Origin: Verrucomicrobium spinosum DSM 4136 = JCM 18804
GTDB lineage: Bacteria > Verrucomicrobiota > Verrucomicrobiia > Verrucomicrobiales > Verrucomicrobiaceae
Direction of reading: 5' to 3'
DNA: 64,000 nt
Assembly: GCF_000172155.1 (NCBI RefSeq)
Contig: NZ_ABIZ01000001.1
Span: 6,047,105 to 6,111,104 of the forward strand
In this document: positions 3,135-39,307 of the stretch, piece by piece
Position numbering within the stretch: position 1 is the first letter of the stretch
How the letters are laid out: every line of letters starts with the position of its first letter
Translations under genes and position numbers: made by a program
The notes under the pieces: generated by a model
Databases searched by the model: none
What the model saw: the letters and a program-made list of their open reading frames with translations, nothing else
What the model was told of the DNA's origin: nothing

Positions 3135-3971
3135 CTATACGGTGCAGGCGGCGGCGAGCTGGACCAACTTGGTGCGCTCCGAGGTGGCGGGTGCAGGCGT
3201 CTTGCGGATGATGATCTCCCCGAAGGTCTGCTTGCCCTTGGCCTGGGCCTGGTTGAGCGCCCCGTTGCGTGTCTTCACGGCGGTGGTGTGCCAGCCGTGG
3301 AAGAGGCGGCGGTTCAGTGGCGAATCGTCGACTGTGACGATCCAGTCCCCTTTCAGCTCGGCCACCTGGGCAGAGAACTTGGTCATCTGGGCCTCGTTCC
3401 AGCCATCGTAGCAGTCGACGTCGCTGACGGTGTACGGTGGGTCCATGAAGAAGAGCGTGCCTGGGGCGTCGTACAGGCGCAGCATGCGCTCGTAGGACAG
3501 GTTCTCGACGCTCACACGGTCAAGGCGAGCACTGAGGTCCCGGATGGCTTGCTGCACGTTCTCACGGCTTCCTGTGGCGGCACCGCCGCTGGTGCGGGAG
3601 ACGCCGTAGCTCGTCATGGAGGTCCCGAAGCCGATCTTGTTGCGGATGAGCCAACGGGCCGAACGCTGGAGATCCGTGAGGCCTGGTTGAGCAATGAAGT
3701 CCTTGAGGTTCTGACGGGCGTTGAGCGTCCACTGGAGCTCGGCGATCAGGGCCTCGGGATGGAACTGGACGCAGCGGTAAAGCGTGACCAGATCGCCGTT
3801 CAAATCATTGACCACCTCGACGGTGGACCTTGATTTTGCGAGGAGTACTGCGAGGCCACCAGCGAACGGTTCTACGTAAGCGGTGTGCTCTGGCAGTGGT
3901 AGGAGGTGCTTGAGCAGGCGGGATTTTCCGCCTGCCCAGCGGATGAGCGGTTTGGTGCGTTGCGCGGTCAT
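3135..3971 (-). CDS. Dam-type (D12 class) adenine-N6 DNA methyltransferase
   Basis: The 278-residue protein has the class layout. RWAGGKSRLL at residues 11-20 and YVEPFAGGLAVLL at 32-44 form the AdoMet-binding part. VVNDLNGDLVTLYR follows. The catalytic DPPY is at 177-180. It methylates adenine-N6 in duplex DNA and may protect phage DNA from host restriction, or alter host regulation; GATC as target is only a guess from the Dam-like fold. I chose the start at MTAQRTK because the 20 residues upstream are unlike the family. No partner endonuclease gene is adjacent, so it is an orphan methylase. It sits at the far end of the early operon, where Mu-like phages often carry modification genes. Confidence 0.88.
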   Translation of the reverse strand: MTAQRTKPLIRWAGGKSRLLKHLLPLPEHTAYVEPFAGGLAVLLAKSRSTVEVVNDLNGDLVTLYRCVQFHPEALIAELQWTLNARQNLKDFIAQPGLTDLQRSARWLIRNKIGFGTSMTSYGVSRTSGGAATGSRENVQQAIRDLSARLDRVSVENLSYERMLRLYDAPGTLFFMDPPYTVSDVDCYDGWNEAQMTKFSAQVAELKGDWIVTVDDSPLNRRLFHGWHTTAVKTRNGALNQAQAKGKQTFGEIIIRKTPAPATSERTKLVQLAAACTV

Positions 3972-4015
3972 TGGGGCGACTGACGCAATTCGAAGACTGA
4001 CGTTCAATGAATGAT

Positions 4016-4762
4016 CTATCGACCAAACCACTTTGTCAGGTGGTGCAGGGCATCTTTGGTTTTCTTAAAGATTGAAATCCCTGCGGTAGGTCCTGCACTG
4101 CTTCCGTTTGTGCTCCCTGTGGTAGGTCCTGCGCTGCTTCCTGATGTCGTGTCATCCGCCTGGAGCTCAACGTACGCTTCCTCCATTTGTTCAAGCAGCT
4201 GTTTGAGCCGTGTCAGCGTCTTACGGACGTCAGAACGATTTGCGGAATGAACTCCCATCATTCCTGTCTTTTCAATGGGTTTCGTTAGCAGATCATTGAT
4301 CTTCTCGACCCCGAAGCCATCCACTTGTTCCAATTTGAAGACTTGTGGGGCAAGCGCATGGAGCCAAGTGCGTTGCTGACAGATCAAGACCGGTAGAGCT
4401 GTTAATAGTCCTGCAAGCTGTGCATGCCTAGTCTGCTGCTTCATGAATCTCAGGTTGGAGCTGTACTCAAATTGCTGAAATATAAGCCCGATGAAAAGTA
4501 TGATGAAGGCGTAGGCCGCGAACTGCGCATTTAGGGAGCCAAAGATGTCACCAAATTGGCCCACCTCAGCCAAAGTCACAGTTTCATCGGCTTTAACTGC
4601 TTCCCCACCAGCGTTTGAGATCGCAATTTCCTGTTTGAATTTTTTGAGTCGATCCAGAGTCACCGAGGGGTGGGAGGTGGTCATCCAGTATACCAGAATA
4701 CCAATCGCCATGAGCGACAAACTGTAGAGAACACTGTGCCTTTGATGGTGCCTTTGATTCAT
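4016..4762 (-). CDS. Membrane protein with two transmembrane segments and a Ser/Gly/Thr repeat tail; probable moron
   Basis: The 248-residue product has a hydrophobic segment near residues 13-29 (LYSLSLMAIGILVYWM). A second lies near 82-100 (AAYAFIILFIGLIFQQF), after an extracytoplasmic loop of about 50 residues. A long charged helical part follows (KTLTRLKQLLEQMEEAYVEL), then a linker with a 12-residue in-frame repeat (GSSAGPTTGSTN, then GSSAGPTAG) encoded by a 36-base direct repeat at 4081-4142. Base composition is clearly less GC-rich than its neighbours. I recognise no family. A foreign-looking membrane gene at the end of an early block suggests a lysogenic conversion or exclusion function, but this is inference. 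Confidence 0.65.
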   Translation of the reverse strand: MNQRHHQRHSVLYSLSLMAIGILVYWMTTSHPSVTLDRLKKFKQEIAISNAGGEAVKADETVTLAEVGQFGDIFGSLNAQFAAYAFIILFIGLIFQQFEYSSNLRFMKQQTRHAQLAGLLTALPVLICQQRTWLHALAPQVFKLEQVDGFGVEKINDLLTKPIEKTGMMGVHSANRSDVRKTLTRLKQLLEQMEEAYVELQADDTTSGSSAGPTTGSTNGSSAGPTAGISIFKKTKDALHHLTKWFGR

Positions 4763-27965: not shown

Positions 27966-28581
27966 AATCACCATCAAGATCGATGACACGGTCACGCAGG
28001 CCCTGAAGTTCCTCCTGGGGGATTTGACGGATTTGAAGCCGCTGAACAAGAGGATCGCGGATGCTGCTGAGGTGGTGACTCGTGAGCACATCCTCTTTCG
28101 TGCTGCCCCCACCCGCCATACGACTGCCGACCGGCTGGGAGCACAGCCCACGGGATACCTCATCCGGAGAGGCAACGCGATAGAGAGTGCGAGCAATGCG
28201 GAGGGGGCCACGGTCACCCTGGGCGGTGCGCCTGAAATCTTCGCCCGGGTGGAAGGGCCTGTGACCATCAAGCCTGTTAACTCCAAGTACCTGACCATTC
28301 CCGCCAGTGCCCAGGCCTACGGCCGCCGCGCCCGCGAGCTCCAGGGGCTGAAGCCGATCCGCCTGGGACGACACCTGGCCCTGGTGGAGGAGAGCGACAG
28401 CGGCCGACCCATCAAAGGCGACAAGTCTGGCCGCAAGATCGTGGTGCACTACTGGCTCAAGGAATCGGTCACGCTGCCCCAGGACCGGGGCCTGCTGCCG
28501 AGCGAAGAGCAATACACGGTGGCCGCTGAGGGGGCGGCGGCTGACATGCTGCGAGAGGACCTCGCCCAACTGCAATCTTGA
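27958..28581 (+). CDS. Virion morphogenesis protein, Mu gpG / HK97-gp10-like
   Basis: The 207-residue protein starts with a strand (MLEITIKIDD) and a long helix (VTQALKFLLGDLTDLKPLNK). Then comes EVVTREHILFRAAPTRHTTA with basic residues, as in the virion morphogenesis family, in which the helix is followed by HFRSG-like repeats. The middle strand part contains YLTIPASAQAYGRRARELQG. It probably binds the neck or tail tube. Proximity to gp36- and gp37-like genes supports this. Confidence 0.65.
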   Translation: MLEITIKIDDTVTQALKFLLGDLTDLKPLNKRIADAAEVVTREHILFRAAPTRHTTADRLGAQPTGYLIRRGNAIESASNAEGATVTLGGAPEIFARVEGPVTIKPVNSKYLTIPASAQAYGRRARELQGLKPIRLGRHLALVEESDSGRPIKGDKSGRKIVVHYWLKESVTLPQDRGLLPSEEQYTVAAEGAAADMLREDLAQLQS

Positions 28582-28590
28582 ATCTTGATC

Positions 28591-29331
28591 ATGAGCAACA
28601 CCTGGAACGACGATGTGATCAGCCTCCTGCAAGAGGACGTGTACGGCCGCTTGGCCAACGATGTGTTCTTCAGCGACATCCCTGTGCTGCTGGCTCGCAA
28701 GGGGCTGGTGGACAGTGACGTGGAACTGGCCCTGAGCGGGCTCAATGAGAAGGATGGCAAGGCAGGCTCCTGCGTGATCGTGCTGATGCCCGAGGTGGAT
28801 GCGCCAGAGGGGGAATCTCCCGGGCCGGTCATTGAGGTGGTGCAGTCCTTCCAGGTCATTGTGCGGCCGCTCATCGCTGATGACACTGCCAGCGGTGGCG
28901 TGGGGAAGAACGCCGAACAGATCGGGGTGAACGTGCTCAACCTCCTGCACCGCTATGTGCCCCGGCGTGTGGGCAACGTCCTCACCGCCGACAAGAAGCC
29001 GATGCGGCCGCTGCAAGCCCCAGTCCAAGGGGAGGTGCACTACCTGGTGGTGCTGCGACTGCGCACGGGGCTGGACCGCGTGAGGAAGGTGATGGAGCCG
29101 CAGATCACCCCGGGCGAAACCATCACCCTCACCTGTGGCACTGCTGGAGCTGAGATCTACTGGACGGCGGACGGCTCCTATCCCGGTCCCGCCAATGAGG
29201 CGGCCACGCTCTACAGCGGCCCGATCACGCTGCCCCCGGAGACGGTGTTCCCCATCGACTTCCAGGCGGTGGCCTACCTGGAGGGGATGATCCCCTCCGA
29301 CTGCAACTGGGCCCCCATCGCTGACGAATAA
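28591..29331 (+). CDS. Tail terminator-like protein with a C-terminal chitobiase-like domain
   Basis: The 246-residue protein has an N-terminal part of about 165 residues (VFFSDIPVLLARKG, QSFQVIVRPLIADD, LHRYVPRR, LVVLRLRTGLDR) like the tail terminators of Mu gp37 (DUF1834) type. The C-terminal 75 residues carry PGETITLTCGTAGAEIYWTA, then DGSYPGP, then LYSGPITLPPET. This is the pattern of the small Chb/HEX-type beta domain (CHB_HEX_C_1) found in bacterial surface proteins. Such a fused beta domain could decorate the tail tip. The start was set at MSNTW, two codons after a TTG. Confidence 0.65.
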   Translation: MSNTWNDDVISLLQEDVYGRLANDVFFSDIPVLLARKGLVDSDVELALSGLNEKDGKAGSCVIVLMPEVDAPEGESPGPVIEVVQSFQVIVRPLIADDTASGGVGKNAEQIGVNVLNLLHRYVPRRVGNVLTADKKPMRPLQAPVQGEVHYLVVLRLRTGLDRVRKVMEPQITPGETITLTCGTAGAEIYWTADGSYPGPANEAATLYSGPITLPPETVFPIDFQAVAYLEGMIPSDCNWAPIADE

Positions 29332-29369
29332 GCCCACCCCAACCACCCACCTCCCACCTACTAAAAGTT

Positions 29370-30308
29370 ATGTCTAGAACCGATATCTTGCGCGGCCCCG
29401 CGATCATCCAGTACCAGGCCCAGACCTTCTACTCCCAGGGCGACATCACGGTCACGCTGGGCCGCGAAACCTTCGCGGTGAACGTGGCCAACTTCGGCAA
29501 GGTCGACGACCGTGTTGACCAGATCATGCACCAGATCAGCTTCACCCCTGCGGGACAGTGGGCGGCCCTGGGCGTGCTCTTCCCCTATGCATCGGCGCTC
29601 ATTGGGTCCAGCGTCTTTGGCGCAGACAAGACAATCACCATCTGGACCATCGATGGCAAGAAGCGTGTGTACAAAGCAGGCGCGGTGACCAAGATGCCGA
29701 ACATCATGCTGGCGGCCACGAGGACGCTGTTTGGCGATGTGCAGTTCACCTGCCTGCATGCGGAGGCCAGCGCCTGGGCTGACGCCAACTCGCTCTTCAC
29801 CGACAGCACCGAGGCCTACCCGGGCGATGCCGCCTTCAACGCGGCCCAGATCATCACCCAGCCTTACACCTGCTCATGGGGTGAGGATGCGCCATGGGAC
29901 AGCTTCCAGACGCAGGAAGGCATTGCTGTGGAGTTCAACCTCCAGCTCAACCCGGAGACGAATGATCACAAGGGCCTGTTCGACTATACCTTCCAGTCCC
30001 TGGATGTGTCGGCGAAGTTCATCCCTGACGGGGTGACGCCCGCACAGGTGCTGGCCCTGCTGAAGCACCAGGGCGCTGGGGCCGTGCGTGGCGGGAGTAC
30101 CGCGACCACCAACAAGCTCAAGATCGCAGGCACGGGTGTGTTCGTCTCCCTCAGTGGAGCAGCTCCGATCCTGGGCAACGAGGCCTATGGTGCGAGTGTG
30201 CGCCGGGTGGGGCAGATGGAGTTCCGGGCCACCCGCACCTTCACTGGCGGAGTGGTGGATCCGCTCTTTGTGGTGGGGACGGAAGACCCTGATGAAGAGG
30301 GGGCCTGA
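29370..30308 (+). CDS. Major tail tube protein (predicted)
   Basis: The 312-residue product is strand-rich and of even composition: SRTDILRGPAIIQYQAQTFY, then DITVTLGRETFAVNVANFGK, then IMHQISFTPAGQWAALG. The start with LRGPAII, a long beta pattern in the middle and a C-terminal Ig-like part with GTGVFVSLSGAAP suit a tube protein of a long non-contractile tail. No sheath gene is seen next to it. It lies just before the basic repeat protein and two genes before the fibre, so it is placed in the tail module by context. Confidence 0.65.
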   Translation: MSRTDILRGPAIIQYQAQTFYSQGDITVTLGRETFAVNVANFGKVDDRVDQIMHQISFTPAGQWAALGVLFPYASALIGSSVFGADKTITIWTIDGKKRVYKAGAVTKMPNIMLAATRTLFGDVQFTCLHAEASAWADANSLFTDSTEAYPGDAAFNAAQIITQPYTCSWGEDAPWDSFQTQEGIAVEFNLQLNPETNDHKGLFDYTFQSLDVSAKFIPDGVTPAQVLALLKHQGAGAVRGGSTATTNKLKIAGTGVFVSLSGAAPILGNEAYGASVRRVGQMEFRATRTFTGGVVDPLFVVGTEDPDEEGA

Positions 30309-30328
30309 CAGGCCCTGACGCAACGCCT

Positions 30329-30346
30329 CTTGCAAGGCCCCTGCAA
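30329..30346. repeat. Copy 3 of the TTGCAAGG-type palindrome
   Basis: CTTGCAAGGCCCCTGCAA lies in the 50-base spacer between the tail tube gene and the basic repeat protein gene. It differs by one base from the perfect palindrome. Confidence 0.7.
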
Positions 30347-30358
30347 TGACCCGCCACC

Positions 30359-31087
30359 ATGGCCAGCCTCAACGACTACAGCGCCCGCAGCTCCTCCAAG
30401 TTCCAGGCCGCCAGTGCCCGACGCACGGCGACCTGGAAACAGAAGGATGCGGGGCGTGCGTTCGCCCGGGCGAGCCAGCGGCAGAGCGGGTTGTTTCTCA
30501 ATGCCTCGCGGAGGCAGAGCGCTGAGATGGCCCGCAGGTCACCGGGGGGGCTCTTCCGCCAGGCGTCGCAGCGCCAGAGTGAGGCCTTCATCGCGGCCTC
30601 CCAGCGGGCCTCTGCGGAGATGGTGCGACGGTCCCCTGGCAACCGCTTCCAGGAAGCGAGCCAGGCCCAGAGCAACCGCTTCCTGGAGGCCTCCCGCAGG
30701 CAGTCGGCCGAGCTGCTCCGCCGCTCGCCAGGCCGGGGGTTTGTAGAGGCATCGAGGGAGCAGTCTGCGGACATGATGAGGCGGTCACCAGGGCCAGCTT
30801 TCCAGCAGGCATCCCAGGCCCAGAGCGGCCGCTTCGTGGCCCGGTCCCAGGCGCAGGGGGAGCAGATGGACCGGCAAGCTCCCGGGGCTGAGTTCGTCCG
30901 CAGATCCCAACAGCAGAGCGCGGCCGCAGACCGGGGCAAGGCCCTGCCGGCCGGCCGCTCACGACGACCCCGCAATCTCCACACCATGCCCATGGCCCAG
31001 ATGCGGGCCAGCCAGGCGCGGACCCGCCAGACGACCAGTGCCGCAAAGCAGCAGATGCAGCAGGTCCGCATCAATGCCCCACGGTAA
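30359..31087 (+). CDS. Basic repeat protein with RRSPG and ASQxQS motifs
   Basis: The 242-residue product is built of repeats of about 31 residues. RRSPG occurs at residues 59, 90, 121 and 141 and a variant RQAPG at 172; between them stand ASQRQS- or ASRRQS-type motifs. It has no hydrophobic core and is very rich in Arg, Gln, Ser and Ala with few acidic residues, so it should be strongly basic and perhaps disordered or helical. I know no family. It lies where tail assembly chaperones are normally found, between tube and tape-measure genes. It may bind DNA or act as a scaffold. Codon use is GC-rich like its neighbours. Confidence 0.6.
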   Translation: MASLNDYSARSSSKFQAASARRTATWKQKDAGRAFARASQRQSGLFLNASRRQSAEMARRSPGGLFRQASQRQSEAFIAASQRASAEMVRRSPGNRFQEASQAQSNRFLEASRRQSAELLRRSPGRGFVEASREQSADMMRRSPGPAFQQASQAQSGRFVARSQAQGEQMDRQAPGAEFVRRSQQQSAAADRGKALPAGRSRRPRNLHTMPMAQMRASQARTRQTTSAAKQQMQQVRINAPR

Positions 31088-31138
31088 TTTCCTCGTTAGC
31101 CACCCACCCCTTCATCACCACCCACACCCTCCCACTCT

Positions 31139-31642
31139 ATGCGCGTTTACATCGGCACCTTCTACCTCGCTGGCGATCCCGCCCTGGGCGAGCACCGGAG
31201 CTCCTCCTGTGGGGAGTTCAACATGACTCCCCGCAGAATCCAGCAGCAAGTCGAAGGCTGGCAATGGGAGGTGCCCCAGTTCGCGGACCGGGGCAACCTG
31301 GCCCAGCAGGTGGAGTTCGACACCATCCGCCGTTTCGACAGCTTCGCCGAGGTCCATGAGTTCATGCGGTCGATCTCGACGGCCCATGCCTGGGAGGGCA
31401 CCGTGACTTTTCGCGAAGACGGTCCCATGCCTGGCACCTGGACGGAGTTCGACATTGCCAACTGCATCATCACCCCGCCGGTGATGTACCCGATGGGAGT
31501 GAGCCTGCGACTGCACTACAGCATCCTGGGCGGGGCCATCTCTCCCAACCGCACCGGCGTCTGGGGAGCCCGCATCACTGAGGGCGACGAGGAGCGCGAG
31601 ACCGAGGACGGCGGCATCCGCGTGCAGGAGGACGAAGCCTGA
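31139..31642 (+). CDS. Hypothetical tail protein
   Basis: The 167-residue product is strand-rich (MRVYIGTFYLAGDPALG, then GTVTFREDGPMPGTWTEF, then LRLHYSILGGAI) with an acidic C-terminal tail of about 20 residues. A long loop contains EVHEFMRSISTAHAWEG. No family recognised. It starts after an ACCCTCCCACTCT leader without Shine-Dalgarno. The position suggests a small tail or tail-tip component. Confidence 0.5.
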   Translation: MRVYIGTFYLAGDPALGEHRSSSCGEFNMTPRRIQQQVEGWQWEVPQFADRGNLAQQVEFDTIRRFDSFAEVHEFMRSISTAHAWEGTVTFREDGPMPGTWTEFDIANCIITPPVMYPMGVSLRLHYSILGGAISPNRTGVWGARITEGDEERETEDGGIRVQEDEA

Positions 31643-31713
31643 CCTGGCCCGAGCAGCTCCACCCACAGCAAGTTTCCACCCATAACCACAAGCCAACCCA
31701 ACCTGAGAAACCC

Positions 31714-33333
31714 ATGATGAAACACCTCCTCAAACCCACCCTGCTGGCCGCCAGCCTGGCTCTGGCGTTTTCGTTCGTCGCCCCTGATGCCCATGCCCAA
31801 CCCCCCAAGAAGATCAGGGACCTGACGGCCGCCAGCTCGCTGTCTGGCACTGATATCTTTGAGGTCACGGTTGACCCAGACGGCACCCCCGCAAGCCGCA
31901 AGGCGACGATCACGCAGATCGGTGAATGGCTGGACAGCGTGACGATGACGCTCACTGGCAAGACCATCGATGGCGGCAGCAACACGCTCTCCAACATCGG
32001 TCAATCATCCATCACCAACCTGGTGAGTGACCTGGCGGCCAAGCAGGCGGCAGACGCCACGCTGACCGCCCTGGCTGGGCTTACCACGGGCGCGGACAAG
32101 CTGCCGTACTTCACGGGCTCTGATGCTGTTGCCACCGCCGACTTCACGGCCTTTGCCAGGACCCTCCTGGATGATGCCGACGCCGCCACGGCCCGGGCCA
32201 CCCTGGGCATCACCAGCCCCCAGGAGAGCCTGACGGCCGTCGTGGATGCCAGTGGCAACGACAGCACCGGCACCGTGGGTGACCCGAGCAAGCCGTACCT
32301 GACGATTCAGGCTGCACTGGATGACCTGCTTGCAGCGCCGTCCACCTTTGAGATGCGGACTCTTCGTGTGCGGACGCTGGCGGCCACCGAGAGTGTGACG
32401 ATCCAGGAATACCCTGGGTATCTGTTCCTGGACCTTCTGCCTGGCTACAGCAACATGGGCAACTTCTCTGAGTTGACTGTGACGTGGGACGCTGGTGGGG
32501 GGCACTCCATCAATCTGTATCTGCGGGGGGAAATGGGGAACCTCACGGCTCCAGGCCAGTTCGTGAATCTCGTCGGGGTGGAGCAGGCAAAAGTGCAAAA
32601 CATCGTCATCACTGATGGATCGCTGGCGGAGAGCAATGCGGGTGGGAGCCTGCAAGCAGCAGGGCCATTGTTGCTGTCAGGTAACATCTACGGGTACGGA
32701 GCAGCCGGTGATATGTCCACCCCAGGCGTCCCCGGCAAGTCCGTGAATCTAGGAAATGACGTAAAATGGACTGGCGGCGGCAACAGCATCCAACTGGGTG
32801 GAGGCAGTGATGGCGGGGCTGGTGGTGGCTCGGCTGGGACGGTCACCATCAGTGGCAACGCATCCGTGGGTGGACAGAACAGCAACATGTTCTTGATCTC
32901 CAACCTCGACTGGAACACAGACGCCAAGACGGGCATCGTGCAGTACAACCGCACCTCCACGGACACTCTGACGGCGACATCCACCCAACTCGGTGGCTAT
33001 GTCGAGCTGCCGATGCCCGGGGTGTATCTGCTGTTTGGCCACGTCAATCTCCAGTTCGCCGCTGCCACATTCTCCAGCTCGCGGACCATGACCCTCAAAT
33101 TCCGCCGCATCAACAACACGGCGGCGGATGTGGGCGGCCCGTCTCTGACGCTTCCCACCCAGATCACGAGCTCGCAGACCCGATCCCTCGGCTCCTGCAT
33201 GATGCCGCTGGGCATCTACGTCACGCCCCGCTCGGGTGATCGCATCGCCATCTTTGGCGATGTGTCTGTGGTGCCCAGTGCTGGCTCTGCCGATGTGGTG
33301 GGGCTGAGCATCACTTCATTCAAGGCCAGCTGA
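31714..33333 (+). CDS. Tail fibre-like protein with an N-terminal signal peptide
   Basis: The 539-residue protein begins with a typical signal peptide: two Lys, a hydrophobic core LLAASLALAFSFVA, and cleavage after PDAHA at residue 28. Next come fibre-type segments LTALAGLTTGADKLPYFTGS and AFARTLLDDADAATARATLG, which are usual in phage tail fibres. A Ser/Thr/Gly-rich beta-helix-like region follows (VTISGNASVGGQNSNMFLIS), then a C1q/TNF-like head near 440-535 with GGYVELPMPGVYLLFGHVNL. The head should bind a receptor. A signal peptide on a fibre is unusual: the protein may be exported by the lysogen, or the start may be misassigned. Confidence 0.75.
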   Translation: MMKHLLKPTLLAASLALAFSFVAPDAHAQPPKKIRDLTAASSLSGTDIFEVTVDPDGTPASRKATITQIGEWLDSVTMTLTGKTIDGGSNTLSNIGQSSITNLVSDLAAKQAADATLTALAGLTTGADKLPYFTGSDAVATADFTAFARTLLDDADAATARATLGITSPQESLTAVVDASGNDSTGTVGDPSKPYLTIQAALDDLLAAPSTFEMRTLRVRTLAATESVTIQEYPGYLFLDLLPGYSNMGNFSELTVTWDAGGGHSINLYLRGEMGNLTAPGQFVNLVGVEQAKVQNIVITDGSLAESNAGGSLQAAGPLLLSGNIYGYGAAGDMSTPGVPGKSVNLGNDVKWTGGGNSIQLGGGSDGGAGGGSAGTVTISGNASVGGQNSNMFLISNLDWNTDAKTGIVQYNRTSTDTLTATSTQLGGYVELPMPGVYLLFGHVNLQFAAATFSSSRTMTLKFRRINNTAADVGGPSLTLPTQITSSQTRSLGSCMMPLGIYVTPRSGDRIAIFGDVSVVPSAGSADVVGLSITSFKAS

Positions 33334-33363
33334 CCCTGTTGACTCCTCACCCCTCCACGCCCC

Positions 33364-35319
33364 GTGCCCTACGTCATCAAGCTCACCACTCAAGCCGACA
33401 CTGCCGCCCTGAAACAGGTGACGCAGGGCCTGGAGGAATCTGCCAAGGCCGCTGAGGCGGCGGCAGATGGGATGGAGAAGGTGGGTGACAAGGCCACGGA
33501 GGCGGAGGGCGCGATCCAGCGGGCGGCCAAGGCGACCAAGGACTGGAACCAGCTGGCCAAAGAAATGGGAGCAGTGGCCGGGTCGCCCCTGGCCAGGGCT
33601 GCGGGGGATGATGAGGATGACCTCGACAGCTTCCTGGAGGGGATGAACGGGGGCGAGGGTGACGTCTCTGCCGCGGAGCGGAATGCTGAGCTGAAGGTCA
33701 ACCGGGAGACGGCCAGGCAGGATGCCATGCAGCGGGCCGCAGAGGCCATCGCAGCGGCCAAGGAAAAGACTGAAGAAGCCCTGGCCGAGCGGCGGCAACG
33801 CCGGATGGCGGAGGAGCAGCAGGCGTCCGATGAGGCCATGAAGTCCGGGGCCATGCGCATGGCCGCATGGGGCACGGCCGTCTTCGCCGCCGGTGCGGTG
33901 GCGAGGTCCGCCTTCCGGGGGTTTCTGGATCAGAACCCAGAGGTGGAGAAGAGCATCAGCCGCCTCGCGGCCGTGGCCCAGACGGAGCTGGGGCAGAAGT
34001 TCACCACGGCGGTGGAGTGGGCCTTCGGTGCGAACGCCGTGAGCAAACTGGAGAGCTTCTCCAAAATGATGACGGGCGCCGCTGATGTGGTGGAGGCCAT
34101 GGGCACGGCCTCGGCCACCGTCCGCGAGACCACCTTTGCTGAAGTGCTGCAACAGGAGTCCGACGCGATCGACAGGTGGAAGGGCAAGATGGATGAGCGC
34201 ACCGACTACCTGAAGCGGGAGCTGGAGCACGCCAAAGAGATGAGGAAGCTCATGCTCCAGCAAGACCTGTCCGACCTGGAAAAGGCAGACCTGCCAGAGA
34301 GTGAGAAGACGGCAAAACGCCGCCAGCTCCAGCGTGATGCGGGCTGGGATGAGCTGCAAATCAACGATGCGGCAAGGGCACGTGATGAGGAGAAAGTCAC
34401 GGCCAAAGCGACCCAGGCCGGGGAGGCCCAGGCAGAAGCAGAATACCGGCTGAAGCAGGCCCAGGAACTGGTGACCAAGCTGGAAACCAAGCGCATGGTC
34501 GAGGGGGAAATCACTGAGGGGAAGGCGGCTCTCTTCGCCTCGCCGAGCATCACGGATGCGCTGAAGCCAGGGGAAGTGGCAGCTGCGAAGCAGGAAGTGA
34601 AGAAGCAGATCGCCCGGGACCAAGATAGACTCAATAAGATCAATGACGAAGCCAAAGGCATCTTCAATGATCCGAATCTCCCCGATGAAACGAAGGACCA
34701 GCTGAGGAGCATCGACGACCAGGTGGGCAAGGGAGAATTACCCTTTAAGGAGGCGATAGAGAAATACCGCCAGGTCCTGGAGGGATTGCGCCAGGCGGAC
34801 AAGCAGGCCAAGGAAAACGGGAAAAAAGTGGCTGACGAATGGCAGAAGACCGTGGACCGCAATGTGCAGGACCGGGCCAACGAGGGAGAGCAGTGGCAGG
34901 AGAGGTCGGGCATGGAAGATGACAAGGCGGCGCAGCAGGCCGAGCAGCAGCGAGCCCAGGAAGATATCGGCGAGGCCCGCCAGGAGTTGGAGGCGACCGA
35001 CAAGTCAGTGACAGAAGATGCCAAGAATCTTGTGGAAGGGCTCAAGGCCCTGGAGGCCAAAAAGCGTGGCATCGACGACGCCACCGCCGACGCCATGGCG
35101 CGATTGGCTGCCAGCATCGAAGATGGGATTGCACCGCAGGAACTGCAAAAGGTCCAGGATGTCCTCAATAACATGGGTGGTGAAGTGGCGAACGGCTTCT
35201 CCGCCATGGCCAGCGCCATGTCATCTGTGGCACTCCGGCTGGAGAGCTCAACGAAGGACCTCAACGCAATCAAGTCCCGTCTGGAGGCCCTGGAGTCATC
35301 CGCGAGCGCCCAACGGTAA
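33364..35319 (+). CDS. Coiled-coil tape-measure-like protein
   Basis: The 651-residue product starts at GTG (MPYVIKLTTQADTAALKQVT). It is nearly all charged coiled coil (EESAKAAEAAADGMEKVGDK, EALAERRQRRMAEEQQASDE, and again from 250 to 620), with one hydrophobic part near residues 165-185 (RMAAWGTAVFAAGAVARSAF). This is the general layout of a tape-measure protein that sets tail length and forms a channel at entry. The length predicts a short tail, roughly 1.5 A per residue or about 100 nm. Identity rests on composition and place only. Confidence 0.6.
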   Translation: MPYVIKLTTQADTAALKQVTQGLEESAKAAEAAADGMEKVGDKATEAEGAIQRAAKATKDWNQLAKEMGAVAGSPLARAAGDDEDDLDSFLEGMNGGEGDVSAAERNAELKVNRETARQDAMQRAAEAIAAAKEKTEEALAERRQRRMAEEQQASDEAMKSGAMRMAAWGTAVFAAGAVARSAFRGFLDQNPEVEKSISRLAAVAQTELGQKFTTAVEWAFGANAVSKLESFSKMMTGAADVVEAMGTASATVRETTFAEVLQQESDAIDRWKGKMDERTDYLKRELEHAKEMRKLMLQQDLSDLEKADLPESEKTAKRRQLQRDAGWDELQINDAARARDEEKVTAKATQAGEAQAEAEYRLKQAQELVTKLETKRMVEGEITEGKAALFASPSITDALKPGEVAAAKQEVKKQIARDQDRLNKINDEAKGIFNDPNLPDETKDQLRSIDDQVGKGELPFKEAIEKYRQVLEGLRQADKQAKENGKKVADEWQKTVDRNVQDRANEGEQWQERSGMEDDKAAQQAEQQRAQEDIGEARQELEATDKSVTEDAKNLVEGLKALEAKKRGIDDATADAMARLAASIEDGIAPQELQKVQDVLNNMGGEVANGFSAMASAMSSVALRLESSTKDLNAIKSRLEALESSASAQR

Positions 35320-35334
35320 ACACACCTCAGCACC

Positions 35335-37038
35335 ATGGCAATCGAATGGCTCATCAATGACGAGACCCCAGAACACTGGGGGGTGACGCTGGGCACCCTG
35401 ACCCGCAACAACCAGGCGGTGGACGTGCTGTCCCTGCCCATCAATCGGGCGGCCGATGCGGTGATCCCTTTCGACTACGACCAGGTCATCACCCTGAAAC
35501 GCGATGGCGAGCCGTACTTCCGCGGGCGGGTGATGAGCCGGGTGGTGAGCGGCGAGTCTGCGGGCGATGGCATGACCATCGAAGTGGGCGGCCCGTGGTG
35601 GGAGCTCTCCCGCATGCCGTACGTAGTGCTGACGCTGAGCGTGGAGGAGACTCCCGAGAAGACCTACCGGCTGCGTAGCAACATGTCTGGCGGTGTGCGC
35701 CAGACGAGCCTGCAAATGATCCAGCAGGTGTTGGACTATGCAGTGGGCAAGGGCTTGGGCTTTCAACTCCAGGAGGAGCCGTATGTGCTCTCATCCTTCA
35801 AGCCGCCGCGCACCACGAAGCAGGACCGCCGCTGTGATGAGCTGATCCGCAGTGCCCTGACGGCCCACCCCGATACGGTGGTGTGGTTTGACTACAGCAC
35901 TGAGCCCCCCACCTTCCGGCTCACGACGAGAGGGGACGAGGGAACAACCATCAGCTTCACCAAAGGGGTGCCCCCGTTGCGGGCGGTGAACCTACAGCCC
36001 CGGCCGGATCTGGTGCCTAGTGGCGTGGTGGTGCGCTACGAGCGCAGCGGCACGGCCGTGAGCACAGATGGGAAGCGGCCCGCTGTGTTGGTGGATGCGT
36101 ACCCGCCGGAATCGGAGCCAGACGTGCTGGATGCCATCGCCATGACCATCACCCTCAAGAAGGGTGAGCACGCGCTGGCAGGCTATGCCCAGCGGCTCTA
36201 CACGGCCTTCTCCGTGATGCCCTGGGAGGGTGGCGTGCAGCTCTGGGCGGCCGATGGTGTGACGGGCCTGCACCCGGGGCAGAGCCTCAACATCACGAGC
36301 GACCAGGCGAGCTGGGCCACCATGGGGGCGATGGTGCAGACGGTGCAGGAGAGCCTGGACAACGGCTTCGTCAATGTCTCTCTGGGCCTGCCCCAGTACT
36401 GCGGCTACAAGCCCACGATCTGGACGATCACCCGCCGCCAGCATGAGGACCAGCGGGTGGATACCATCGACAGCGGGGAGACGGAGGAGTATGCGCCAGA
36501 GTTCGAGGAGACGGTACCCTCAACGGGCCTGACTGTGTATGCAGCCGACGTGAACGTGGACACGGGGACCTGCCAGATCCGGGTGTCGCCCGGATGGGTG
36601 AGCGCCTCGCACCTGGGCACCGAGGAGGACGAGATACCGCCCACGCTGGACACCACGGAGCTGGACTTTATACCGCCACCCTACATTGCCCTGGGCAAGG
36701 GTGGCACGGTGACGGTGTGGCTGGAGCTGGAGATCACCCCGACCATGACGGAGATGACCTTCACGGATGCCGAGGGGGAAGAGGTGGTGGAGTTCCGCCC
36801 TACAACACCGATGACCTTCGACCAGTGCCGCATCGTCTCAGGCTCCATGCCTGATGAGCAGATGTGGGACCTCGACTACGAGACGGGCGAGGTGAACCTC
36901 ACCCTGAAGCTTGCCCTGGCCATCGGCAGTGCCAGCTGGCCCGTGGATCAGGATGGACCGACTGTGAACCCTGAGAACGACGGCAATGTGGTGATGCTCC
37001 TCATCCCCCCAGGCGGGCTGATCCGCGTGCGAGCCTGA
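35335..37038 (+). CDS. Tail tip/hub protein (baseplate-like)
   Basis: The 567-residue protein begins with IEWLINDETPEHWGVTLGTL. Near the middle it has a pattern common in tail hub proteins: ALTAHPDTVVWFDYSTEPPT, FRLTTRGD, SGVVVRYER. A C-terminal beta part contains TWTITRRQHEDQ-like and VQTVQESLDNGFVNVSLGLP stretches. A hub or distal tail protein is the best guess from position behind the tape-measure gene and from the beta-rich, multi-domain look. It ends in a Gly/Ile tail with MLLIPPGGLIRVRA. Confidence 0.6.
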   Translation: MAIEWLINDETPEHWGVTLGTLTRNNQAVDVLSLPINRAADAVIPFDYDQVITLKRDGEPYFRGRVMSRVVSGESAGDGMTIEVGGPWWELSRMPYVVLTLSVEETPEKTYRLRSNMSGGVRQTSLQMIQQVLDYAVGKGLGFQLQEEPYVLSSFKPPRTTKQDRRCDELIRSALTAHPDTVVWFDYSTEPPTFRLTTRGDEGTTISFTKGVPPLRAVNLQPRPDLVPSGVVVRYERSGTAVSTDGKRPAVLVDAYPPESEPDVLDAIAMTITLKKGEHALAGYAQRLYTAFSVMPWEGGVQLWAADGVTGLHPGQSLNITSDQASWATMGAMVQTVQESLDNGFVNVSLGLPQYCGYKPTIWTITRRQHEDQRVDTIDSGETEEYAPEFEETVPSTGLTVYAADVNVDTGTCQIRVSPGWVSASHLGTEEDEIPPTLDTTELDFIPPPYIALGKGGTVTVWLELEITPTMTEMTFTDAEGEEVVEFRPTTPMTFDQCRIVSGSMPDEQMWDLDYETGEVNLTLKLALAIGSASWPVDQDGPTVNPENDGNVVMLLIPPGGLIRVRA

Positions 37039-37050
37039 CCCCTGACGCCC

Positions 37051-37815
37051 ATGCTGGACGAGCTGCTCTACGCTGAGATTACCGCTGCCGACCTGCTGCG
37101 GGAGTGGTATCCGACCCCGCCACTGTGCGTGCCGCTGGCTACAGGGGAATGGCGCGCCCAGTATGTGCACATGATCTTCGTCTACCAGATCAGGAACTGG
37201 GAGGACGATGAAACGCCACCGGCATGGGAGACGCTCGGCGTGACTGTGACCGATATCTTCCCGCTGCCCTTCTTCCGCCTGGCCAGGTTGCTGCGGCGCA
37301 AGCAGAAGCTCACCGAGGAGAGCGACATCGTGGTCACCACGCAGAGGGAGCAGGTGCGTTGGCGCTGGATCTGGCAGGTGGGTGACCATCCCATGCACTG
37401 GAACATGGTGCACATCAGGTGGCGCTATGAGGAGCGGCTGACGGTGAATGGTGCACCGAGCACCACGTGGGGTGACACCAACGAACACTGGTGGAAGGGC
37501 GCTGTGCCCGAGGGCTATGACCCTGGCATCAACACGACCTGGCCAGGGACGGACTGGGAAGAGACGCCCCTACCCGCAGTCCCTGAGCCTGCCGACCCTG
37601 GAGTGGGGATCACCAATTCCAACGAGGGGCAGACCTGGATGGACTGGGTGTGGCCGCATCGTGATGTGATCGCGCTGTACCCGCACTACCCGTTTGACGG
37701 GAGCAACTCCCTGTTTGCCCCTGGCTTCATTCCTGGGGCCTACGAGCCCGAGCACATCTATGGCCGCCCCAAGTCCAACGGGGTGTTCTACGGCCGCCCA
37801 CCGACCCCGCCGTGA
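37051..37815 (+). CDS. Last late gene, Trp-rich tail protein of unknown function
   Basis: The 254-residue product is rich in Trp, Tyr, His and Pro. It has a short helix start (LLYAEITAADLLREWYPTPP), then WRAQYVHMIFVYQIRNWEDD. A long loop of His/Trp residues follows (NEHWWKGAVPEGYDPGINTT), and the end, ALYPHYPFDGSNSLFAPGFI, repeats aromatic patches. Aromatic-rich proteins at the tail tip often bind carbohydrates or host receptors; no family is recognised. It is the last gene before the right end sites. Confidence 0.5.
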   Translation: MLDELLYAEITAADLLREWYPTPPLCVPLATGEWRAQYVHMIFVYQIRNWEDDETPPAWETLGVTVTDIFPLPFFRLARLLRRKQKLTEESDIVVTTQREQVRWRWIWQVGDHPMHWNMVHIRWRYEERLTVNGAPSTTWGDTNEHWWKGAVPEGYDPGINTTWPGTDWEETPLPAVPEPADPGVGITNSNEGQTWMDWVWPHRDVIALYPHYPFDGSNSLFAPGFIPGAYEPEHIYGRPKSNGVFYGRPPTPP

Positions 37816-37818
37816 CGT

Positions 37819-37838
37819 CTTGCAAGGGCCTTGCAAGG
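37819..37838. repeat. Copy 4 of the TTGCAAGG-type palindrome
   Basis: CTTGCAAGGGCCTTGCAAGG follows the last late gene by three bases. It is a near-perfect palindrome, about 43 bases inside the first right-end transposase-type site. Confidence 0.75.
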
Positions 37839-37880
37839 TGGGTGGGTGAAGGCTGCGAAACTGGAGCCGTGACGTGAAAG

Positions 37881-37934
37881 TTTCTCAGATCTCTGCAATT
37901 CTTTCTCAGATCGTTTGCGGCGTTACTCCTTTCA
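37881..37934 (-). repeat. Right prophage end with transposase-type binding sites
   Basis: TTTCTCAGA occurs at 37881 and 37902, the inverted form of the left-end TCTGAGAAA. The inner copy is extended to AAGTTTCTCAGATCTCTGCAATTC (24 bases). The outer one is followed by CGTTTGCGG and by a CCTTTCA end. Spacing between the two sites is 21 bases, i.e. two helical turns. Confidence 0.75.
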
Positions 37935-38056
37935 CCTTTTTTGGAGCCCTGTACCCGCCGGGCCCTCCAGGTTCATGAGTCAATCACGGCTCTCCCGTGC
38001 CCCCCCACTACGTCGCGCGCCCCTGACAACAATCCCTTGGCAGACACAGCCCCCCC

Positions 38057-38322
38057 GAACCCGGAGGGTTCACCATGAATAGCCACAGGTCGACCGAGCC
38101 TAGCGAGGGCTACCTGTGGATTCATCGCCCCGACGATCTACCGCGGAGCGGTAGGCCCATCATGCTGCCGCCCTCGCATGACCGTCCCGCTATTCACGAC
38201 ATCCGTCATTCGGACCCCATTGGCGTACCGCTCCGCGGTACAATGCGCACAACCGCTTTCCATGGGTAGTCCTCGCTCCGCTCGGCCGACCCATGGCTAC
38301 GCATGGCGAACCCTTCGGGTTC
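38057..38322. repeat. Palindromic host repeat element, copy A (266 bp)
   Basis: The left terminus GAACCCGGAGGGTTCACC, continuing to GCCA, is the same as in the copy at 49549-49792. The right terminus is a diverged form (TGGCTACGCATGGCGAACCC). Inside are inverted pieces around ACCGCGGAGCGGT and ACCGCTCCGCGGT. It carries no credible reading frame. It lies 122 bases beyond the proposed right prophage end. Confidence 0.85.
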
Positions 38323-38340
38323 ATGAGATAACTCGAGCAA

Positions 38341-38424
38341 AAGAACCAAGAACCAAGAACCAAGAACCAAGAACCAAGAACCAAGAACCAAGAACCAAGA
38401 ACCAAGAACCAAGAACCAAGAACC
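38341..38424. repeat. Tandem repeat, 12 x AAGAACC
   Basis: Twelve perfect heptamers follow copy A by 18 bases and end one base before the stop codon of the phosphoesterase gene. Seven-base units are typical of slippage-prone microsatellites; copy number is likely to vary between strains. It is not a CRISPR array, since there are no spacers. Confidence 0.95.
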
Positions 38425-38425
38425 C

Positions 38426-39307
38426 CTAAACCACATCCGTGTTCACCACATCAAAGCACGCGATCTCCGGCGGACACATGAAACGCACATGGTACTGGAT
38501 CGTGCCGATCCCCCGGTTCACATACAACCGGATGTTGTCCACGTCATAGAATCCGGCCTGGAACTTCACCCCCCAACTGGGAAGGCGCAGGGCACCGATG
38601 CCGGGAAGGCGAATCTGCCCTCCATGGGTGTGGCCGGAAGCCTGAAAGACGATTTGTTTCTCCCCCGCCAGATGACTGGCGTAGTCCGGCTCATGCACCA
38701 GCATGAGGGTCCGGTCGTCCGGCCTCAACCCCTGGGAGGCCACCGCCCAGTTGGGCCGACCACCCCAGACGCTCTGCAGCCCGGTCAGCACCACCTCGCC
38801 TCCAGCGCAAGGCACCCGCGTGTGCCGGTTCACCAGTACGTCAATGCCCTGTTTCACCAGGATGTTCTGAATCCGCCCCGGTTGGTGCCAGTGATCATGA
38901 TTGCCCAGGCAGGCGAAGACGCCGCAGGCGGACTGGAACCCACCCACCACCTGGCCAAATTCCTCGAACTTGTGGCTGGTGTTGGAGATGTAGTCTCCCG
39001 TCAGCATGATGATGTCCGGCTTGAGGGCATTTGTCCGCCGCACCACCTCCGCGAGGTATGCCTCCTCAAACAGGGGGTCAAAGTGAAAGTCCGTCAGGCT
39101 CACCGCCCGGAACTTCGCCGGAGCCCGACTGCCCAAAGCCAGACGCACATCGTGGCGATCCACTGTCACGCGATGGCGCTCAATGAGAGACGAGTAGCCG
39201 TAGGTCGCACCGCCCCCCATGATCATGGAGGGAGCTGCCAGCAGCCGAAACCGCTTCAGGAAGGCGCGTCGCTTTTCGCTAAAGGGGGTTCGAGGATCAG
39301 CGTTCAT
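38426..39307 (-). CDS. Metallophosphoesterase (YaeI/YkuE-like)
   Basis: The 293-residue protein has the calcineurin-like motifs in order: LTDFHFDP, GDYIS, LGNHDHW, HEPDY and GHTHGGQ. They bind two metal ions. An RR-containing N-terminal segment (SEKRRAFLKRFRLLAAPSMI) looks like a membrane or Tat-type export signal. YkuE of Bacillus is such a Tat-exported wall-bound phosphoesterase. The stop codon directly adjoins the heptamer tandem repeat. It overlaps the upstream beta-propeller gene by four bases (ATGA). Confidence 0.85.
   Translation of the reverse strand: MNADPRTPFSEKRRAFLKRFRLLAAPSMIMGGGATYGYSSLIERHRVTVDRHDVRLALGSRAPAKFRAVSLTDFHFDPLFEEAYLAEVVRRTNALKPDIIMLTGDYISNTSHKFEEFGQVVGGFQSACGVFACLGNHDHWHQPGRIQNILVKQGIDVLVNRHTRVPCAGGEVVLTGLQSVWGGRPNWAVASQGLRPDDRTLMLVHEPDYASHLAGEKQIVFQASGHTHGGQIRLPGIGALRLPSWGVKFQAGFYDVDNIRLYVNRGIGTIQYHVRFMCPPEIACFDVVNTDVV

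Follow-up and report, generated by a model that had tools for sequence, protein, structure and literature searches.

A very basic repeat protein gene in the variable slot behind a T5-type tail tube gene of a Mu-like prophage

INTRODUCTION

Tail assembly chaperones of the lambda gpG/gpGT type are encoded directly downstream of the tail tube gene and upstream of the tape measure gene. They involve a programmed frameshift into an overlapping second frame, bind the tape measure protein and are absent from mature virions. The place behind the tail tube gene is commonly regarded as a fixed site for chaperone genes. In the window studied here, 64,000 nucleotides of Verrucomicrobium spinosum DSM 4136 (contig NZ_ABIZ01000001.1, positions 6,047,105 to 6,111,104), this place is taken by a gene for a very basic repeat protein. 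We ask whether this gene is real, whether its product is a tail chaperone, how the same slot is filled in related phages and which role would suit the protein best.

RESULTS

The ORF at 30359-31087 is a real coding gene under selection. A second prophage in the same genome carries a copy that is 94% identical, and of the 39 differences between the two genes, 24 fall at codon position 3, giving a dN of 0.036, a dS of 0.121 and a dN/dS of 0.29. The same pair of prophages yielded dN/dS values of 0.16 for the tube gene, 0.19 for the conserved downstream gene that we call MRI (Table 1) and 0.09 and 0.19 for the two genes ahead of the tube, so that the five genes from 27958 to MRI range from 0.09 to 0.29. 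The probable tape measure gene diverges much faster than its neighbors (78% identity between the prophages; dN/dS, 0.59). Third-position G+C of the basic gene was 0.84, in line with the 0.73 to 0.85 of the other genes measured. A purine-rich stretch resembling a ribosome-binding site preceded only the portal gene among 10 starts examined, and its absence ahead of the basic gene therefore says little.

The encoded protein holds 45 arginine and lysine residues, 40 of them arginines, against 15 aspartate and glutamate residues (net charge, +30; pI 12.0). It is thus indeed highly basic and poor in acidic residues, as a first-pass annotation of this DNA had it, and shows the strongly basic composition asked of a histone-like protein. 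The 31-residue units with RRSPG and AS(Q/R)xQS motifs described in the same annotation were borne out as well: identities at lag 31 numbered 72, compared to a mean of 22.1 after shuffling (z, 11.6; none of 2,000 shuffles reached 72), lags 51, 62, 20 and 11 were also raised, and the motif [FLMYI]xx[ARN]Sxx[QA]S occurred nine times, against a maximum of three over 5,000 shuffles. The unit divides into 11, 11 and 9 residues (F..AS..QS.. / F..AS..QS.. / M.RRSPG...). Nearly every sub-unit opens with a large hydrophobic residue (F, M or L), and the statement that the protein has no hydrophobic core is therefore only partly right.

At the DNA level, the repeats are faint and form a single four-copy family of 60 to 80% identity. 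Residue identity exceeded base identity in two of three pairs of in-register units, and in two of six pairs when the out-of-register last unit was included. Since the three in-register units share only 58 to 68% of their residues and 58 to 61% of their bases, and since TRF detected no 93-nt array, the length of the 31-residue period, in the gene, the duplication is old. In the viral-contig relative described below (L012), two adjoining units are 84% identical as DNA, indicating that its array grew more recently than that of the window.

Apart from the two prophages, a single family member was found, in viral contig IMGVR_UViG_3300037044_000076 (L012). Its product is 45% identical to the window protein, whereas the tape measure proteins of these two loci share only 25% identity. 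The relative has the N terminus, the 31-residue units and the slot in common with the window gene and differs by one extra 11-residue sub-unit and by a long C terminus unrelated to that of the window. This C-terminal part (L012 6951-8237) is rich in Gly, Thr and Pro and carries degenerate GQGAK/RP.LRP repeats. The reading frame is open in all three copies.

The gene is rare: in the data searched, it occurs in two prophages and one viral contig. Scans of viral contigs with tube, basic, neck and MRI queries revealed no member beyond these three, and scans of genome contigs added none. Searches of 188 genomes of the class and 67 of the family, both including the window's own, likewise gave no further member and only weak matches. 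These matches, seven in the class search (E, 8.5e-4 to 0.009) and four in the family search (E, 0.008 to 0.031), covered parts of the protein and in several cases contained stops; they were set aside collectively, not one at a time, as compositional. Nothing in Pfam, PHROGs, NCBIfam, PDB sequences or 50,697 phage records matched the protein significantly, and the first four of these gave no significant match to a DNA- or RNA-binding family; the homolog search proposed by the first-pass annotation thus returned no known chaperone or capsid family. Some stray matches were taken to reflect composition: PHROG 17476 at an E of 0.24, NCBIfam HpnM at 0.023 and two PDB entries, namely a designed pore (0.062) and an adaptor protein (0.9). 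The titles and abstract openings covered by a literature search contained nothing on the basic repeat protein; other reports may exist.

Table 1. Features of the basic repeat gene and of the tail genes around it (window coordinates)
Feature	Coordinates	Strand	Evidence
Very basic repeat protein gene, 242 aa (ATG 30359, TAA 31087)	30359..31087	+	ORF, periodicity, dN/dS, homologs
Conserved N-terminal segment, residues 1-34 (MASLNDYS...DAGRA)	30359..30460	+	Kept in 45%-identical viral-contig relative L012
Repeat array, residues 35-187, 11+11+9-residue units, F..AS..QS motif and RSPG/APG breaks	30461..30919	+	Periodicity, motif count; 11-residue L012 insertion equals one sub-unit
C-terminal tail	30920..31084	+	Not kept in viral-contig relative L012
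Major tail tube protein, 312 aa, double-domain, T5 pb6-like	29370..30308	+	AlphaFold model, Foldseek, VIA-align
MRI gene, conserved, acidic, 167 aa; candidate distal-tail (Dit-position) protein	31139..31642	+	21-relative alignment; Dit suggested by position only
Tail fibre protein, 539 aa	31714..33333	+	PHROG tail fibre families, best E 2.9e-16
Probable tape measure protein, 651 aa, net charge -30	33364..35319	+	Sub-threshold Pfam TMP_N and PHROG tape measure matches, position, charge
Probable tail hub protein, 567 aa	35335..37038	+	Position after tape measure; no family match (Pfam, PHROGs, NCBIfam)

We then examined the setting of the gene. Support for the Mu-like nature of the phage, as first read, comes from its head genes, which match Portal_Mu (1.7e-56), the Mu-like protease family Mu-like_Pro (9.5e-19) and Mu Gp36 (1.1e-7). 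Searching Pfam, PHROGs and NCBIfam with the gene ahead of the basic gene gave nothing significant. The AlphaFold model of its product (21-row alignment; pLDDT, 86.1; pTM, 0.84) aligned over its whole length with the T5 tail tube protein pb6 (9iny_A; VIA-align Z, 17.5; 281 residues; rmsd, 3.6) and also with the P74-26 tail tube (8ed0_A; Z, 15.2). The T5 tube was the top hit of VIA-align and the fifth of Foldseek (9iny_A; E, 2.3e-7), the best Foldseek hits being T5/DT57C-type tail-tip proteins (E, 1.8e-10). As judged from the predicted fold, the gene encodes a tail tube of the T5 pb6/P74-26 double-domain type, here in a Mu-like phage, so that the basic gene, which starts 50 nt after the tube stop, does follow a tail tube. 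The C-terminal part of the gene ahead of the tube (28585-29331) matches a chitobiase C-terminal/Fn3-associated domain (Pfam E, 2.9e-8).

Further downstream, the probable tape measure protein showed sub-threshold matches to Pfam TMP_N (E, 0.034) and to a PHROG tape measure family (E, 0.084). The MRI protein was considered as a tube homologue and rejected (hhalign probability, 0.3%); its PDB profile search returned only an alpha-amylase (E, 0.33), and a PHROG tail fibre family came up for 1 of 21 members.

Scanning 29300-31800 for promoters gave a single sigma-70-like match, on the strand opposite to the basic gene; the host promoter type may differ from this consensus. Two terminator-like matches in the same interval, compared to 1.1 expected and thus at chance level, lie at 30246-30265, within the last part of the tube gene, and at 31749, within the fibre gene, and none lies between the basic gene and MRI. 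Because there is neither a same-strand promoter match nor a terminator-like match between the basic gene and MRI, the basic gene is probably co-transcribed with the tail genes. Rfam returned nothing over 28000-39000. Just past the tail genes, near the likely right end of the prophage, AAGAACC is repeated 12 times in perfect tandem (38341-38424). Elsewhere in the window, the ORF at 3135-4031 on the minus strand carries a DPPY motif and may encode a Dam-type DNA adenine methylase.

We next addressed the question of whether the basic protein is a tail chaperone. The heptamer GGGGGGG at 30544 is common to both prophages and absent from L012, which has GGGGGGT elsewhere, and no slippery heptamer is present in the last 198 nt of the gene, where the -1 frame is open. 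Downstream of the gene, this frame stays open for 90 codons in both prophages and for 4 in L012. Frameshifting from the tube gene into the basic frame was also considered and rejected, as the path is open in L012 only and stops close it in both prophages. No frameshift signal conserved across the two prophages and L012 was thus found, in agreement with the first-pass annotation. Comparison of the basic family with four chaperone-like slot proteins by hhalign gave a probability of 0.04%, in what is a weak test given a basic profile of three rows. Since adjacency to the tape measure gene, a conserved frameshift and a family match all fail, we do not class the basic protein as a tail chaperone. 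The position itself, which the first-pass annotation had called that of the chaperone, does lie behind a tube gene recognized by its fold, but the tape measure gene is not next and the slot is not fixed.

This last point follows from a survey of the slot in related phages. The tube was found by profile in public genomes and viral contigs, slot content was taken from the tube to the next conserved gene, and the counts rest on the 65 distinct tube loci used for the tree. Outside these 65 are 18 further tube matches, mostly partial, weak or no more than a few hundred bases from a contig end; one of the 18, G705, is a near-full-length tube match with about 900 bases beyond it. L063 (= L039), L059 to L061 (loci already counted) and L150 (= L167) were excluded as repeats, L159/L174 was excluded because it ends 355 bases past the tube, and L200, L201 and L202, found via the neck gene, likewise stand outside the 65.

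The gap between tube and MRI is at most 150 nt in 43 of the 65 loci and larger in 21; in L128 no MRI gene was found. Three of the 21 wide slots hold the basic family described here (window, second prophage and L012), and two (L167 and L170) hold another very basic repeat protein. In four (L168, L169, L171 and L172), an ORF of 128 to 164 aa is followed by the tape measure gene and only then by MRI, these being the four loci where MRI comes after the tape measure. Seven wide slots (L053, L069, L142, L143, L149, L155 and L158) contain a small ORF of 77 to 114 aa, L068 has a 243-aa ORF of another kind together with a small ORF, L147, L152 and L153 show a longer gap without a convincing gene, and L135 differs in gene order. 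In summary, small ORFs stand at 11 loci, other content at 6 and very basic repeat proteins at 3 plus 2. The slot behind the tube is thus variable and not a fixed chaperone position in these phages. Because 43 gaps are so short and other loci hold other ORFs, the basic gene is a lineage-specific accessory occupant of this tube-MRI slot. Its sister lineage L062, the nearest tube relative outside the basic clade, has a gap of 37 nt and no basic gene. As expected of a moron, the gene is therefore an extra one, absent at the same place from close relatives.

The basic gene is also missing from L201 (G000:C1:2430000-2446000), the third of the related prophage regions in this genome, so the host does not demand it. 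At the place of the tube, L201 has a different, 187-aa ORF, followed by MRI and by a second, weakly MRI-like gene (E, 0.005).

Among the other occupants, the 128- to 164-aa ORF of L168, L169, L171 and L172 is a candidate uncatalogued family of tail assembly chaperones, apparently helical; three of these ORFs had no significant Pfam or PHROG match. The slots of L200 and L202 hold a small gene of about 85 to 100 aa, and L142, L200 and L202 have smaller genes of a look similar to that of the longer ORF. Read from sequence and position, the small slot ORFs, most clearly those of L168, L169, L171, L172, L142, L200 and L202, may thus be helical and chaperone-like. The slot proteins of L143 and L053 look different, and that of L053 has an AKKAPAKK N terminus and a sub-threshold match to Pfam HC2 (histone H1-like; E, 0.0035).

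The second group of very basic proteins, those of L170 (216 aa, +33) and L167 (235 aa, +26), have TVAKVLT repeats in common (BLASTP, 2e-13). Kinship with the window family was rejected, as L170 and the window protein show no similarity (BLASTP E, 5.8). An 84-aa ORF lies beside the TVAKVLT gene in L170. The L170 protein had no relative among the viral contigs and, among 67 family genomes, matched only its own genome and that of L167. The tube tree unites the window, second-prophage and L012 loci in a single well-supported clade (support, 100/98), pairs L167 with L170 at a support of 98/55, not strong by both measures, and parts the two basic families by a branch with a support of 97/93. Two separate gains of basic slot genes are the simplest reading. 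The four of the five basic loci that have an assigned host all belong to the host family of the window, where very basic occupants fill 4 of 9 loci, compared to 1 of 56 elsewhere (Fisher p, 0.0009, with near-copies counted and the tree ignored). As the five basic loci reflect two clades, the test is not independent, and the concentration in one host family is suggestive at most.

Structure prediction of the basic protein alone, another check put forward by the first-pass annotation, gave six helices of 13 to 57 residues broken at SPG or APG, in a poor model (pLDDT, 50; three sequences). A helical fold is thus predicted, with little confidence. Net charges of the tape measure proteins were -30 in the window, -44 in L012, -29 in L062 and +3 in L170.

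DISCUSSION

What could such a protein do behind a tail tube? A role in tail assembly or in the virion is, we infer, the most likely one. It is favored by where the gene lies, by the lack of a same-strand promoter match and by what some other loci carry in the slot. The gene is coding and selected, stands directly behind a tube recognized by its fold and is probably co-transcribed with the tail genes; at other loci the slot is taken by small ORFs, of which several resemble chaperones in size and appearance; very basic repeat proteins have entered it in two separate tube clades; and the tape measure proteins of this clade are strongly acidic, and the low-confidence model shows helices broken at SPG or APG. 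Our overall, tentative reading is thus of a lineage-specific accessory gene, placed in the late tail operon of a Mu-like phage whose tube is of the T5 type, and of a helical product that would act on an acidic partner in tail morphogenesis.

The basic protein would form a row of amphipathic helices with RSPG turns between them. With one Phe, Met or Leu per 9 to 11 residues, each helix could present a narrow sticky stripe on an otherwise Arg-rich surface, and the helices might lie along an acidic partner, either the strongly acidic tape measure or the tube, making the protein an added or alternative factor of tail assembly. Several findings speak against a tail role. The tape measure of L062 is equally acidic (-29) and its locus has no basic gene, the basic protein of L170 goes with a tape measure of +3 and already has an 84-aa ORF alongside, the chaperone tests of frameshift, adjacency and family fail, the model is poor, a terminator-like match, at chance level, lies in the end of the tube gene, and L201 does without the gene. 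Charge pairing with the tape measure was accordingly set aside as the explanation: it fits the window and L012 but not L062 or L170, and is kept as a possibility.

The main and close rival to a tail role is nucleic acid binding, which we consider possible, if rather doubtful. The Arg-rich helices and RSPG turns would then bind phage or host DNA or RNA in the manner of internal or histone-like basic proteins, the protein being either packaged in the virion or produced at a late stage of infection. The charge of +30 over 242 residues with 40 arginines, the second very basic family in the same slot and the weak, sub-threshold histone-like resemblance of the L053 slot protein all point this way, whereas the window protein has no significant match to a DNA-binding family and its gene stands among tail genes, not head genes. 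The scaffold or nucleic-acid-binding role proposed in the first-pass annotation is possible.

A moron-like accessory gene directed against the host or competing phages, and parked in a permissive gap behind the tube, seems unlikely. It would agree with the short gap in most loci, with unrelated genes in others, such as the 243-aa ORF of L068, and with the excess of very basic occupants in one host family. Against it, the consensus scan revealed neither a promoter nor a terminator of the gene's own, although host promoters may differ, several other slot occupants resemble small chaperones, and the host family excess comes from five loci in two clades that are not independent.

That the protein is a genuine tail assembly chaperone whose sequence has diverged too far to be recognized is very improbable: the gene lies directly downstream of the tail tube and its product is probably helical, according to a low-confidence model, but neither a slippery site nor an overlapping frame is conserved, the tape measure gene does not adjoin it, the protein is basic and repetitive, and the comparison with four chaperone-like slot proteins gave no profile similarity, with a basic profile of three rows. 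A low-complexity ORF with little or no function, drifting, is hardly credible, since despite very few relatives and a dN/dS above those of the tube, MRI and the two pre-tube genes, this ratio is clearly below 1, the N terminus and repeats are kept, identity to L012 exceeds that of the tape measures and the frame is open in every copy.

These data show that the slot behind the tube is variable here, being nearly empty in most relatives examined and filled with different genes in others. Should the basic proteins serve tail assembly, they would be a kind of chaperone-like factor that belongs to none of the known frameshifted families; should they instead bind nucleic acid, a tail operon would be encoding an unusual cargo. 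A broader view is that, on at least two independent occasions, phages of a single bacterial family placed a strongly cationic, helical protein built of repeats behind the tube, in the slot where small chaperone-like genes stand in some relatives, and that this protein is a new, charge-inverted type of tail assembly factor lying along an acidic tape measure or tube. This view is speculative, and we regard it as quite unlikely.

Compared to known systems, the basic gene resembles those of lambda gpG/gpGT-type chaperones in lying directly behind the tail tube gene and in encoding a probably helical product. It differs from them in that the protein is very basic and repetitive, has no conserved frameshift or overlapping frame and no significant family match, and in that the MRI and fibre genes separate its gene from that of the tape measure. 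The chlamydial histone-like protein HC2 (Pfam PF07382) offers an analogy only, through the weak, below-cutoff resemblance of the L053 slot protein, and does not match the window protein. The TVAKVLT family is likewise very basic, built of repeated units and found in the same slot and the same host family, while being richer in lysine and having a small upstream ORF alongside.
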